A DNA stretch of 64,000 bases from a gamma proteobacterium L18 (GTDB lineage Bacteria; Pseudomonadota; Gammaproteobacteria; Pseudomonadales; Pseudomonadaceae). The stretch lies in NCBI GenBank assembly GCA_000497835.1, contig KI547164.1:262161-326160 (forward strand), written 5' to 3'. This document shows, in pieces, positions 45,514 to 53,710 of the stretch. Made by a program: the position numbers and the translations under genes. A model generated the notes under the pieces. That model was not told where the DNA came from, ran no database searches, and saw nothing but the letters and a program-made list of their open reading frames with translations. Position 1 is the first letter of the stretch, and each line of letters begins with the position of its first letter.

Positions 45514-45673
45514 TGTCCAGCGCCTCGGGCAGCATGTCCGGGTAATCCAGCGTGTAGTGCAGGCCGCGGCTTTCCTTGCGCTGCATGGCCGAGCGAATCA
45601 TCAACTCGGCCACTTGGGCCAGGTTGCGCAGCTCGATCAGGTCGCGGCTGACCTTGTAGTTGCTGTAGAACTC
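45482..45673 (-). pseudogene. nadB: Displaced native 3' end of nadB
   Basis: On the minus strand this encodes EFYSNYKVSRDLIELRNLAQ and on to ALDTILVPPTYDD with a stop, i.e. the last 63 residues of NadB, but has no start. It is the original chromosomal end of the gene, cut off by the element integrated at 45656-45673. With it, NadB would be 538 residues, the P. aeruginosa length as I recall. The element supplies a recoded replacement for the active copy (52103 onward). It is a dead fragment, but shows the exact insertion point. Confidence 0.93.
45656..45673. other. attL core of the nadB-integrated element
   Basis: GTAGTTGCTGTAGAACTC is identical to 52268-52285. It encodes EFYSNY of NadB on the minus strand. 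Left of it lies the native nadB end; right of it is foreign DNA. It is the longest identity between the two junctions. Confidence 0.9.
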
Positions 45674-45716
45674 GACGTGATGAGGCTAAACCCAATGGAT
45701 ACAGGGGTTTCAGCCG

Positions 45717-47152
45717 ATGACCATCAATCCACGCTCCCAAACTGGGACAAACCTGTTACAAACTCCCCTCGCCAAGCCATACCACTATCGCCGGTCTGGT
45801 CGCTATTACCTTCGCCTTCGCCCTCAAGGCACCGCTAAGGGATTCTTCACGCTGTCACTCAGGACCACCGACAAGGCTACCGCTATGACCATCTCGCAAG
45901 ACATCCTCTCGACCCTCAAGGCATACCATCTGGACAACCCAGAGGCGTCATGGGATGAGCTGAGAGAGCGTCTCTTGGACATCGCTGAGTACAGCCTGAC
46001 GATGGCCCACGGTGATAGCTCACTGGTCGCCTACGAGATGATTAACGATGAGCACCATCAGGCCCTCCGTGAGGCAAGCGCAAAGCTGCCCCTGAGCGTC
46101 AATCAGCAACGGGCTGTGAGTAAGGCACTGGAGATCATTGAGGCGTCTCAGGAGCGCATGAAGGGCAGGTCGGGGAATCTGGTGGAGATCGTAAAGGGTC
46201 TCAAGGATGAGTCTTGTGGCACGTCAGTGGCCCTGACTCCGTCCCTATCTGTAAGTTCATCTGAACGGCTGACCTTCAAGGCTCTCTCTGCGCTGTACTT
46301 GGACGAACTCAAGGACAACGTGACGCCGGGAACCATGCGAGATGCCAAGTCATCCTGTAAGGAGATCGCTGAGATTCTCGGTGATTTGGACCTGAAGACC
46401 CATACACGGGACGATATGAAGAAGCTTCGAGAGAAGCTCTTTGAGGGGCGCAAGGCTTCAACGGTGAAGAAGATACTGACCCGGCTATCAACAGTGATGA
46501 AGTGGGCGGTGAACAACGACTACATTGCCAAAGCCCTGACTGAGGGGCTGAAGCCAACCAAAGGCGCTGATAGCTCCCGTGAGGCGTTCTCTCAGGATCA
46601 GGTAAAGGCCCTCATGGCTCACGCTAAGACCCTGCGAGTGGACGCATGGCAGCGCTGGGCGTTGTCCCTTGGGGTCATCACTGGGACCCGTATTGAGGAA
46701 CTTAGGCAGTTGACTAAGGCTGACGTTAAGCAGGTCGGGGATGTCTGGGTTATCGACATCAATAGGAACGATGGCAAGACGGCCAAGACCAAGAATGCTT
46801 TGAGGGTCATCCCGTTGACCGATGGGGCCTATGGGTTTGATCTTCAGGCTTTCCTTGAGTTTGTCCAAAGAGCGGACTCTCGCCTGTTCGCTTTGGGCGC
46901 TGGGCGATTCTCTGAGTTGCTCAATGGGCTTATCCGTGATGTCTTGGACCTGAAGGCTGATCGCACCCAAACCTTCCACTCGCTACGGCACTCTCTGGCT
47001 GGAGCCTTGAAGGCCGCTGAGATTCCTGTGGGCACCGCTGAGTCGATCTTGGGGCACGCTTCGGGGTCGATCAGCTATGACCTATACGGGGCGGGGAGCG
47101 GGGTTGATGTGGGGCGTATGGCTGAAGCGCTGCAAGCAGCCTTGCGTTGATT
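45717..47152 (+). CDS. int: Tyrosine recombinase (phage-type integrase)
   Basis: A 477-residue integrase (stop included at 47150). An N-terminal arm-binding region, a SAM-like core-binding domain (about 185-280, 'TFKALSALYLDELKDNVTPG') and a catalytic domain. The catalytic set is complete: Arg325 in 'GTRIEELR', a Lys near 354-359, His421 and Arg424 in 'FHSLRHSL', His447 in 'LGHASGS' and Tyr454 in 'ISYDLYG'. It begins 44 bp from attL, as integrases of satellites and temperate phages do. No strong ribosome site is seen. The start region contains the possible arm-site repeat GTTACAAAC. It should catalyse insertion at nadB. Confidence 0.93.
45740..45776. promoter_or_regulatory. Possible integrase arm-site repeats near attL
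   Basis: GGGACAAA followed by TGTTACAAAC occurs here and again at about 52031-52062 close to attR (GGGACAAAG ... CTGTTACAAACC). The same short words at both ends in the same order suggest arm-type binding sites for the integrase. Their location inside the integrase start is unusual. Confidence 0.4.
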
Positions 47153-47257
47153 ACGTAGGAACCTTTCCTCGTAGCTCCTACGCGGGGTCTCAGAGGGTTC
47201 CTGTGGGAACACTCCATGAGGCGCTTGTAAAGGCGTTCTCGTTTGTGAAACCTTGAG

Positions 47258-47355
47258 CCGCTGAGATTCCTATGGTGACTGCTGGTTCGGTCTTGGGGCA
47301 CGCCTCGGGGTCAATCAGTTATGACCTCTATCGCGTGGAGAGCTTGGTTGACTAA
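47258..47355 (+). pseudogene. Remnant of a second integrase 3' end
   Basis: The frame reads AEIPMVTAGSVLGHASGSIS then YDLYRVESLVD and a stop, closely parallel to residues 434-460 of the intact integrase (AEIPVGTAESILGHASGSIS, then YDLYGAG). A TGA and a 2-bp deletion precede it, so it is broken. It contains the His and Tyr catalytic region. It may be left from replacement of an older integrase, or from partial duplication. Confidence 0.8.
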
Positions 47356-51773: not shown

Positions 51774-51796
51774 CCATCAACCTATAGGAGAACCCC

Positions 51797-51871
51797 ATGG
51801 ACCACCTACAGGCCCTCTACTGGGTCTGTCTGGCCGTTCAACTGGGGTTCTGGTTGTGGTCGCACCGTTAG
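51797..51871 (+). CDS. 24-residue membrane peptide
   Basis: The frame is MDHLQALYWVCLAVQLGFWL then WSHR, preceded by TATAGGAG at seven bases. Residues 6-22 form one hydrophobic helix. The ribosome site is as good as those of the larger genes, and the gene lies 23 bp after the KilA-N gene. Possible roles are a mini-holin, pore or membrane-binding exclusion peptide; none can be shown from sequence. Confidence 0.55.
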   Translation: MDHLQALYWVCLAVQLGFWLWSHR

Positions 51872-52102
51872 CTGCTCCCCAGCTCACAGCAGGCCCTTTG
51901 AGAATCTGACAGAAAAATCTGAACGGTCACCATTACAAGACTTCCCGCGCAGGCTCCCCCGTAGGCCCTCGCGTGGGTGCCCGTGGACGCGTTAAGGACC
52001 CTCGCGGGCAGGCGATAAGGACCCCAGCGATGGGACAAAGATGCGCCAAAGCTGTTACAAACCGGGGCCTTACCGTGCTACGCTGAGGCTTCCTAACGTG
52101 CC
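51872..52102. other. Non-coding right end of the satellite
   Basis: About 230 bp with repeated GC-rich words ('ccctcgcg' twice, 'taaggacc' twice) and the GGGACAAA / TGTTACAAAC words shared with the left end. It probably holds integrase arm sites; packaging signals could also lie here. No gene is visible. Confidence 0.5.
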
Positions 52103-53710
52103 TCATTTGTCGGGTGTAAGGATCGTATCCTTCGCCTCTGGCAGCATCTCTGGATAGTCCAGCGTGTAGTGCAGACCCCGAGATTCCTTGCGTTCCATGG
52201 CTGACCTAATCATCAGCTCTGCTACTTGAGCAAGGTTCCTCAGTTCAATCAGGTCTCTGCTCACTCGGTAGTTGCTGTAGAACTCATCGATCTCGTCCAG
52301 CAGCAGGCGCACCCGGTGCTCGGCGCGTTGCAGGCGCTTGGTGGTACGGACGATGCCCACGTAGTCCCACATGAAGCGCCGCAGCTCATCCCAGTTGTGG
52401 GCGATGATCACGTCTTCGTCCGAATCGGTCACCTGGCTGGCGTCCCAGTGCGGCAACTGCTCGGGCAGGGCGGTGTGGGGCAGTTGCTCGACGATGTGCG
52501 CAGCGGCCGAGCGGCCATACACGAAGCATTCGAGCAGCGAATTGCTGGCCATGCGATTGGCGCCGTGCAGGCCGGTGAAGGTGGTTTCGCCGACGGCGTA
52601 CAGGCCCGGCACGTCGGTGCTGCCGTGCTGGTCGATCATCACCCCGCCGCAGGTGTAGTGCGCTGCGGGCACCACCGGGATGGCTTGGCGGGTGATGTCG
52701 ATGCCAAAGGTCAGGCAGCGCTCATAAACAGTGGGGAAGTGGCTGGTGATGAACTCGGCCGGCTTGTGGCTGATGTCCAGGTACACGCAGTCCACGCCCA
52801 GGCGCTTCATTTCATGGTCGATGGCACGGGCAACGATGTCCCGCGGCGCCAGCTCGGCGCGCGGGTCGAAGCGTGGCATGAAGCGTTCGCCGTTGGGCAG
52901 CTTGAGCAGGGCGCCTTCGCCGCGCAGGGCCTCGGTCACCAGGAAGCTCTTGGCCTGGGGGTGATACAGGCAGGTGGGGTGGAACTGGTTGAACTCCAGG
53001 TTGGCCACCCGGCAGCCGGCGCGCCAGGCCATGGCGATACCGTCGCCACAGGCGCCGTCGGGGTTGCTGGTATAGAGGTAGACCTTGGCCGCGCCGCCGG
53101 TGGCCAGGATGGTGAAGCGCGCGCCGAAGGTGTCGACCTCGCCGGTGCTGCGGTCCAGCACGTAGGCGCCCAGGCAGCGATCGCCCTCAAGGCCCAGGCG
53201 GCGCTCGGTGATCAGGTCCACGGCCACGCGCTGTTCCAGCAGTTCGATGTTCGGACGCAGGCGTGCCTGGGCCAGCAGCGTATTGAAGATGGCGGCGCCG
53301 GTGGCGTCGGCGGCGTGAATGATGCGCCGATGGCTGTGGCCGCCTTCGCGCGTCAGGTGGAATTCGAAACTGTTTTCGTCGTGGGCCGGGTCGTCGTCAC
53401 GGGTGAAGGGTACGCCCTGGTCGATCAGCCACTGGATGGCCTCGCGGCTGTGCTCCACGGTGAAACGCACGGCGTCTTCGTGGCACAGCCCACCGCCGGC
53501 ATTGAGGGTGTCTTCGACGTGGGACTGCACCGTGTCCGTGTCGTCCAGGACTGCGGCCACGCCACCCTGGGCCCAGAAGGTCGAACCGTTGGACAGATCA
53601 CCCTTGCTCAGTACCGCAATGCGCAAATGCCCGGGCAGGGTCAGGGCCAGGCTCAAGCCTGCGGCACCGCTGCCAATCACTAGAACGTCGTGTTGATACT
53701 GCTGGCTCAT
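52103..53710 (-). CDS. nadB: L-aspartate oxidase, 3' end supplied by the satellite
   Basis: A 535-residue FAD enzyme that oxidises aspartate to iminoaspartate in NAD synthesis. Motifs: 'DVLVIGSGAAGLSLALTLPG' (dinucleotide binding, residues 8-27), 'GSTFWAQGGVAAVLDD', 'HTCGGVMIDQHG'-type active region ('AAHYTCGGVMIDQHGSTDVP') and 'GLHGANRMASNSLLECFVYG'. Residues 476-535 lie inside the element and are recoded: compared with the displaced native end, K becomes R, Q becomes E, D becomes E, L becomes K, and VPPTYDD becomes TPDK, while many codons differ silently. The active site is untouched, so function should persist. Confidence 0.95.
   Translation of the reverse strand: MSQQYQHDVLVIGSGAAGLSLALTLPGHLRIAVLSKGDLSNGSTFWAQGGVAAVLDDTDTVQSHVEDTLNAGGGLCHEDAVRFTVEHSREAIQWLIDQGVPFTRDDDPAHDENSFEFHLTREGGHSHRRIIHAADATGAAIFNTLLAQARLRPNIELLEQRVAVDLITERRLGLEGDRCLGAYVLDRSTGEVDTFGARFTILATGGAAKVYLYTSNPDGACGDGIAMAWRAGCRVANLEFNQFHPTCLYHPQAKSFLVTEALRGEGALLKLPNGERFMPRFDPRAELAPRDIVARAIDHEMKRLGVDCVYLDISHKPAEFITSHFPTVYERCLTFGIDITRQAIPVVPAAHYTCGGVMIDQHGSTDVPGLYAVGETTFTGLHGANRMASNSLLECFVYGRSAAAHIVEQLPHTALPEQLPHWDASQVTDSDEDVIIAHNWDELRRFMWDYVGIVRTTKRLQRAEHRVRLLLDEIDEFYSNYRVSRDLIELRNLAQVAELMIRSAMERKESRGLHYTLDYPEMLPEAKDTILTPDK
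52268..52285. other. attR core of the nadB-integrated element
   Basis: GTAGTTGCTGTAGAACTC, identical to 45656-45673. To the right the sequence is ordinary high-GC nadB; to the left the codons are those of the element. Confidence 0.9.

Follow-up and report, generated by a model that had tools for sequence, protein, structure and literature searches.

The window analysed here, a 64,000-nucleotide stretch of contig KI547164.1 from the gamma proteobacterium L18, contains a 6,612-bp integrative element in nadB, bounded by 18-bp exact att repeats. We consider this element likely to be a satellite of gh-1-like (T7-like) phages, in which the polymerase of the helper phage would switch on the late genes and the helper terminase would package concatemers. 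The element family is real, widespread and coherent, and a new group of satellites of T7-like phages is our best reading of it. This reading is favoured because, among those considered, it alone explains the promoters, the packaging end, the size and the integrase together; activation, excision and packaging of the element are what we infer from them. T7-like phages serve as textbook models and are common in phage therapy, but among the best-ranked papers returned by searches of PubMed Central (PMC) we found no description of a satellite of these phages, or of any satellite driven by its helper's own RNA polymerase.

Integrase, promoters, length and packaging end

The attL core, GTAGTTGCTGTAGAACTC (45656–45673, no strand), belongs to the 3' part of nadB and recurs exactly as the attR core at 52268–52285 (no strand). 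The displaced original end of nadB lies to the left of attL, and the minus-strand gene stays whole because the element supplies a recoded last part of it (52106–52267, minus strand), recognised from the list of open reading frames (ORFs) and from the match of the NadB model to the nadB product (E 4e-300, residues 31–564 of 565). A tyrosine integrase of 477 aa is encoded at 45717–47150 on the plus strand (PF00589, Phage_integrase, E 5e-15; phrog_1 integrase, 2e-43), and its DNA is 69% identical over 218 bp to the integrase of the T7-like phages vB_PsyP_3MF5 (3MF5) and phTUNSv. The plus-strand gene order continues with a DUF1508 ORF, an HNH endonuclease, ORF C, ORF D, a 334-aa protein and a KilA-N/antirepressor-like protein; these seven element ORFs (at least 52 aa) were scanned against Pfam and PHROGs, with no match to an RNA polymerase, terminase, portal or tail protein, and no excisionase was recognised in the element. 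Two general marks of a satellite are found together, namely an own integrase with att sites (both ends mapped at 32 of 48 loci of the family) and the lack of complete-virion genes.

Two gh-1-type promoters stand on the plus strand of the element. Scored with a matrix from 10 gh-1 promoters, promoter 1 (47822–47844) reaches 23.3 bits and promoter 2 (48420–48442), a gh-1-class variant (CCCTCACTATTGC), reaches 19.5 bits; nothing in the 64-kb window outside the element exceeds 9 bits, and one weaker match of 10.5 bits lies inside it at 50077. Promoter 1 (here 47828–47847) differs from a typed gh-1-type 20-mer at one position, and none of 100 shuffles of the window matched this 20-mer with three or fewer mismatches. 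The HNH gene lies directly behind promoter 1, and the integrase gene is upstream of both promoters. Across the 32 mapped elements, that of the window among them, the core CCCTCACT has 45 coding-strand sites in 26 and 2 sites on the other strand. A second pattern, AAAAACCCTCAC, was chosen by eye after inspecting the six elements without CCCTCACT, five of which have it, and the two patterns together give 56 coding-strand sites in 31 of the 32 elements, again with 2 on the other strand; a Markov model expects 5.6 (maximum 10 in 20 runs), and 386 kb of flanking sequence holds 4 sites, on both strands. The bases 3' of the core vary by element: some have the ATGGC of gh-1 and phiPst2111, some the AGG types of 3MF5 and phTUNSv, and some types such as CACAAG or CACATA. 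In exact scans of viral contigs, several of ~40–41 kb had the ATGG and ATTG types, and one of 41.8 kb, among few others, had the CACAAG type. In two viral contigs, L136 (6458–6575) and L139 (4449–4566), the CACAAG and CACTATTG promoter types lie ~100 bp apart.

To delimit the family, 68 loci from genus genomes, named genomes and viral contigs, found by searching with the gene of the 334-aa protein, were merged to 47 by identical capsid core and, with one locus (L033) kept beside its near-twin (L032), gave the 48 loci used here, most of which have the same core of genes. Among 298 genomes of the window's genus the protein occurs in 24, the window's own included; a separate draw of 389 other genomes of the order had none. 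A protein search returned 217 relatives, and among the 120 matches listed the named organisms are Pseudomonas except for one compost metagenome; of the 38 loci of the named-genome scan, two are from Stutzerimonas, one is from a record labelled Streptomyces and the others are from Pseudomonas. The insertion sites involve at least six host genes, nadB, ychJ-like, sohB, tesA-like, a LysR-type regulator and a decarboxylase gene, of which the last three are named from NCBIfam matches under the curated cut-off. The original prediction, made from the sequence of the window alone, had pointed to further copies in nadB and conserved gene order as a check; other nadB elements share the att core and the 32 mapped elements share the order integrase, cargo, small ORF, ORF D, capsid. 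By tblastn, 31 of the 32 have a match to ORF D; in 29 the small ORF falls into one of four sequence clusters, and 24 have an antirepressor/KilA-N-like gene.

The mapped elements measure 6,366–6,688 bp (mean 6,525, standard deviation 91), all within 2.5% of the mean. The mapping itself would have allowed a spread of several kb, since attL could lie anywhere in the 450 bp before the integrase and attR anywhere in the 4.5 kb after the capsid gene. Six copies of 6,525 bp make 39,150 bp, and the phages compared have 37.4 (gh-1), 41.2 (phiPst2111), 40.3 (phTUNSv) and 41.6 kb (3MF5). In metagenomes, the longest contig is 6.30–6.75 kb in 12 of ~34 listed protein clusters with a longest contig of 5–10 kb (hand count), which hints at element-length molecules. 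One contig of 6,428 bp (L052, G030 contig 53) has the att core at its very start and end, which would be expected where excised and integrated forms occur side by side and is a further hint. Two genomes each hold two elements (G030 with L052 and L039; G207 with L048 and L050).

Near attR, 76 bp of the element match the terminal-repeat region of Ghunavirus phages (blastn against phage records, 4 of 9 of which match there). Inside this match lies a 37-bp copy of the helper packaging-end sequence (51895–51931, plus strand), 94.6% identical to gh-1 37109–37145, where the best-conserved 37 bp lie in that phage; the gh-1 terminal repeat begins at 37143. From its place in the phage, the copied sequence is presumably the cut site of the helper terminase. 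In local alignments the gh-1 end sequence scores at least 35 in 21 of the 32 elements, always 189–531 bp before attR, with maxima of 26 in the flanks (of equal length where enough flank sequence was available) and 28 for the reverse complement. Adding the 3MF5 end sequence, a query run without the flank control, raises this by four to 25 of 32, at 189–544 bp before attR. By hand count, the 3MF5 end is the better fit, by 12 points or more, in all five elements whose promoters are of the xxxAGG type, like those of 3MF5 and phTUNSv, and in 4 of the 20 other elements with a site, these elements not being independent lineages. The original prediction of a satellite, not a deleted prophage, thus gains strong support from the 48 loci, the uniform size, the strand-specific promoters and the packaging-end copy.

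Capsid-like protein and proposed helper-dependent cycle

The 334-aa protein (49830–50834, plus strand) is modelled as an HK97-fold shell protein; a profile comparison shows no sequence relation to the gh-1 capsid family, and identity drops to 43% across the element family. The presence of its gene in every locus follows from the way the locus set was built. The original prediction was right about the 6.6-kb element with its integrase and att repeats, about the two gh-1-type promoters and about the lack of polymerase, terminase, portal and tail genes, and it missed this predicted capsid-fold gene when it saw no structural gene. ORF D (133 aa, 49378–49779, plus strand) is the conserved partner of the capsid gene, recognised by the tblastn matches in the family and a weak DUF6971 match just below the cut-off; its predicted structure (pLDDT 87) has long C-terminal helices. 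ORF C (96 aa, 48878–49168, plus strand), the small protein upstream of ORF D, was taken from the ORF list and has relatives in the family.

As a plausible cycle, the element's own integrase, by its predicted role, placed it in nadB together with the replacement gene end. In the resting state the late genes would be silent, no polymerase gene being found in the element or in the assembled genome of the carrier. A single-subunit RNA polymerase (PF00940) is lacking in 22 of 24 carrier genomes, the window's genome among them, which fits silence of the element without infection. Upon infection, the helper polymerase would transcribe the HNH, C, D, capsid and antirepressor genes. It might also prime replication: an AT-rich block of 24% G+C (48750–48819, no strand), a candidate T7-type origin, lies 321 bp after a promoter, and 14 of 32 elements have their most AT-rich 70 bp of the interval from integrase to ORF D at 259–359 bp after a promoter. 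In T7, the primary origin consists of two promoters with an AT-rich stretch behind them, and by this analogy the arrangement suggests polymerase-primed replication. The helper terminase would then cut concatemers at the copied packaging-end sequence, most likely filling each helper-sized head with six copies, as the product of 6 x 6.5 kb (39 kb) suggests. Least certain of all, the capsid-fold protein might, with ORF D, modify or partly replace the helper shell and so favour satellite DNA. A long RNA hairpin before ORF D (49266–49354, plus strand; fold z -2.8) is a candidate processing site resembling the RNase III sites annotated in gh-1; its counterpart in L034 has z -3.3 (two sequences folded in all).

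If the satellite reading is true, late-gene activation needs no repressor removal, since recognition of the promoter by the incoming polymerase suffices. The near-fixed length of about one sixth of a T7-like genome would then provide a sharp test of length measurement by T7-type terminases, the family would give the presence of a defence gene like PD-T7-4 on these elements a reason, and polymerase–promoter pairs from across Pseudomonas would become available. A more detailed version, which remains tentative and falls a little short of an even chance, holds that the family, widespread in Pseudomonas, depends on the T7 life cycle for everything, that the helper polymerase is at once sensor, transcriber and replication primer, that the helper terminase uses a stolen terminal-repeat boundary to package six copies, no more and no fewer, that the particles are made partly of satellite capsid, and that variants of promoter and end tune each element to one helper genus.

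Several observations weigh against the satellite reading or parts of it. One element (L044) has no recognised promoter; three (L050, L126, L132) have no packaging end recognised with the gh-1 and 3MF5 queries, and four (L039, L040, L043, L044) have only weak ones (28–30), in the same place. Promoter class and packaging-end class agree only in part, with mismatches in L035, L038, L104 and L106, and in 18 of 32 elements the AT-rich block is not at 259–359 bp after a promoter. The 334-aa protein has no match in the phages collection, and IMG/VR gave only three loci, in contigs of 21–76 kb, so that no virion-borne copy is seen. A locus set based on the capsid gene cannot show that every element has one, and a satellite filling complete helper heads would have no need of such a gene. 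A single-subunit polymerase gene is present in 2 of the 24 carriers. In one of these (L171, G103 contig 22) the polymerase is 64% identical to that of gh-1 and stands amid T7-like genes of 36–67% identity, in a region with four CCCTCACT-type sites; in the other, the neighbouring genes are 34–43% identical to gh-1 and the 20 kb read contains no CCCTCACT-type sites. Finally, the integrase upstream of the promoters and the antirepressor-like gene in 24 of 32 elements leave room for a control of excision beyond the promoter model. The original proposal that the helper is sensed by promoter recognition alone is thus plausible for the genes downstream, and is weakened by the position of the integrase, the antirepressor-like gene and the lack of a recognised excisionase; taken as a whole, the first interpretation is partly supported.

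Rival readings and known systems

The alternative that survives best, although we regard it as unlikely, is a capsid-forming satellite that packages single 6.5-kb copies in a small shell of its own and depends on the helper for no more than tail, portal and terminase. Such a life would resemble that of cf-PICIs, which have a head-packaging module. Like cf-PICIs such as EcCI2, the family has its own HK97-fold capsid protein, and the predicted models align; it differs in having a single capsid-fold gene, no packaging genes found and a T7-like helper. The capsids of cf-PICIs are their own products, and their helpers are temperate phages (PMC10803314). Against an own shell, no own portal or terminase was found in the seven ORFs or in the comparison of the 32 elements with four T7-like phages, and volume scaling from a T=7 shell (40 kb) would give ~2 kb for T=1, ~11 kb for T=3 and ~17 kb for T=4, none of them natural for 6.5 kb.

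Much less probable is a phage-triggered defence island, in which the promoters would sense a T7-like infection and express anti-phage proteins (HNH, a capsid decoy) with no packaging at all. This view would suit the finding of PD-T7-4 and TIR-TM among the cargo and of the HNH gene directly after promoter 1, and the capsid-fold protein could conceivably poison helper shells, but a pure defence island gives no role to the copy of the terminal-repeat boundary (25 of 32 elements), the intact integrase frame or the tight size. Least probable, and already disfavoured, is a deletion remnant of a T7-like temperate prophage (e.g., 3MF5, a Warsawvirus with an integrase) in which integrase, promoters and right end survive: the integrase similarity to 3MF5 and phTUNSv, the antirepressor-region DNA of one element (L048; 91% identical to phTUNSv) and the integrase-bearing T7-like phages described in PMC10134795 and PMC10142737 favour it, but 32 elements in at least six host genes agree in core gene order and deviate from the mean length by no more than 2.5% despite the capsid divergence, the capsid-fold protein has neither a phage-record match nor a profile relation to the gh-1 capsid family, and four T7-like phages share only integrase, antirepressor and HNH, plus gp14 in one element.

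The integrase-bearing phages 3MF5, phTUNSv and vB_PaeM-G11 do have a related integrase, phTUNSv also a related antirepressor; 3MF5 and phTUNSv share the promoter class and 3MF5 the packaging-end sequence. Unlike the element, they are complete phages of 40–42 kb with RNA polymerase, replication, head and tail genes. The single-subunit RNA polymerase expected of a T7-like phage (Studiervirinae) was found neither in the element's seven ORFs nor in the window's genome. LUZ100, compared by description only, is likewise an integrase-bearing T7-like phage (PMC10134795).

Satellites of lytic phages offer parallels as well. PLE of Vibrio cholerae carries a nuclease, and the myophage that serves as its helper lacks a single-subunit RNA polymerase. 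As an ICP1 satellite, PLE resembles the element family in depending on a lytic phage, is reported to remodel capsids, and differs in its larger size and other genes. Also similar in outline are the PICMI (phage-inducible chromosomal minimalist islands) of Vibrionaceae, which set a precedent for concatemer packaging: a 6,110-bp element is packaged as eight copies, ~49 kb, equal to the helper length (PMC10803314). As described there, they share with the family a size of ~6 kb, an integrase, defence cargo, a virulent helper and the packaging of an integer concatemer, which for our element is a predicted property; they differ in the fis site, the AlpA switch, a primase and no capsid-remodelling gene (PMC10803314). 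T7-class promoters and the copied terminal-repeat boundary characterise the element family and were not seen in that description, as far as it was available (PMC10803314). Insertion next to fis was not found, the family sites being six other genes, and no Pfam or PHROGs match to an AlpA regulator or a primase occurs among the window's seven ORFs. The same seven ORFs gave no match to psu, delta, sid or alpha. These four make up the feature list of P4-like satellites.

Cargo, gene exchange and smaller features

The slot between integrase and promoter carries variable cargo. In the window it holds a small DUF1508 ORF (52 aa, 47508–47666, plus strand; PF07411, E 5e-7); PD-T7-4, named from a screen against T7, occupies it in L038 (7096–7755) and L132 (5843–6511), and TIR-TM in L036 (11969–12793, minus strand), so that 3 of 10 cargo proteins tested match defence genes. 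The elements L034 (in nadB) and L036 (with the att sequence of the ychJ-like group) have a common TIR protein, 95% identical, and nearly the same promoters, and their integrases are 83% and 49% identical to that of the window; integrase modules are therefore swapped. Exchange with phages is visible too. When stop-to-stop frames of 60 codons or more, read on the forward strand of the four T7-like phages, were compared with the 32 mapped elements, they matched only the integrase, antirepressor and HNH genes and, in L128 (10035–10619), a T7 gp14-type internal virion protein (PF24072, 8e-45; 75–82% identical to 3MF5/phTUNS).

The HNH endonuclease of the window (169 aa, 47876–48385, plus strand) matches PF13392 (3e-15) and phrog_99 (2e-31), and the KilA-N/antirepressor-like protein (244 aa, 51039–51773, plus strand) matches the transcriptional regulators of phrog_129 (1e-6), with KilA-N itself at an E value of 0.03 only. 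An ORF for a hydrophobic 24-aa peptide (MDHLQALYWVC..., 51797–51871, plus strand), read by eye, lies immediately 5' of the packaging-end sequence, and counterparts were seen by eye in L034, L035 and L041. At 47257–47351 a second, decayed integrase 3' end is 81% identical to 47013–47107 and is perhaps the trace of an earlier integrase exchange. Short repeats (TGGGACAAA / TGTTACAAAC) lie near both ends of the element (45743–45763 and 52031–52062) and also near the right ends of relatives, and are possibly arm sites of the integrase.

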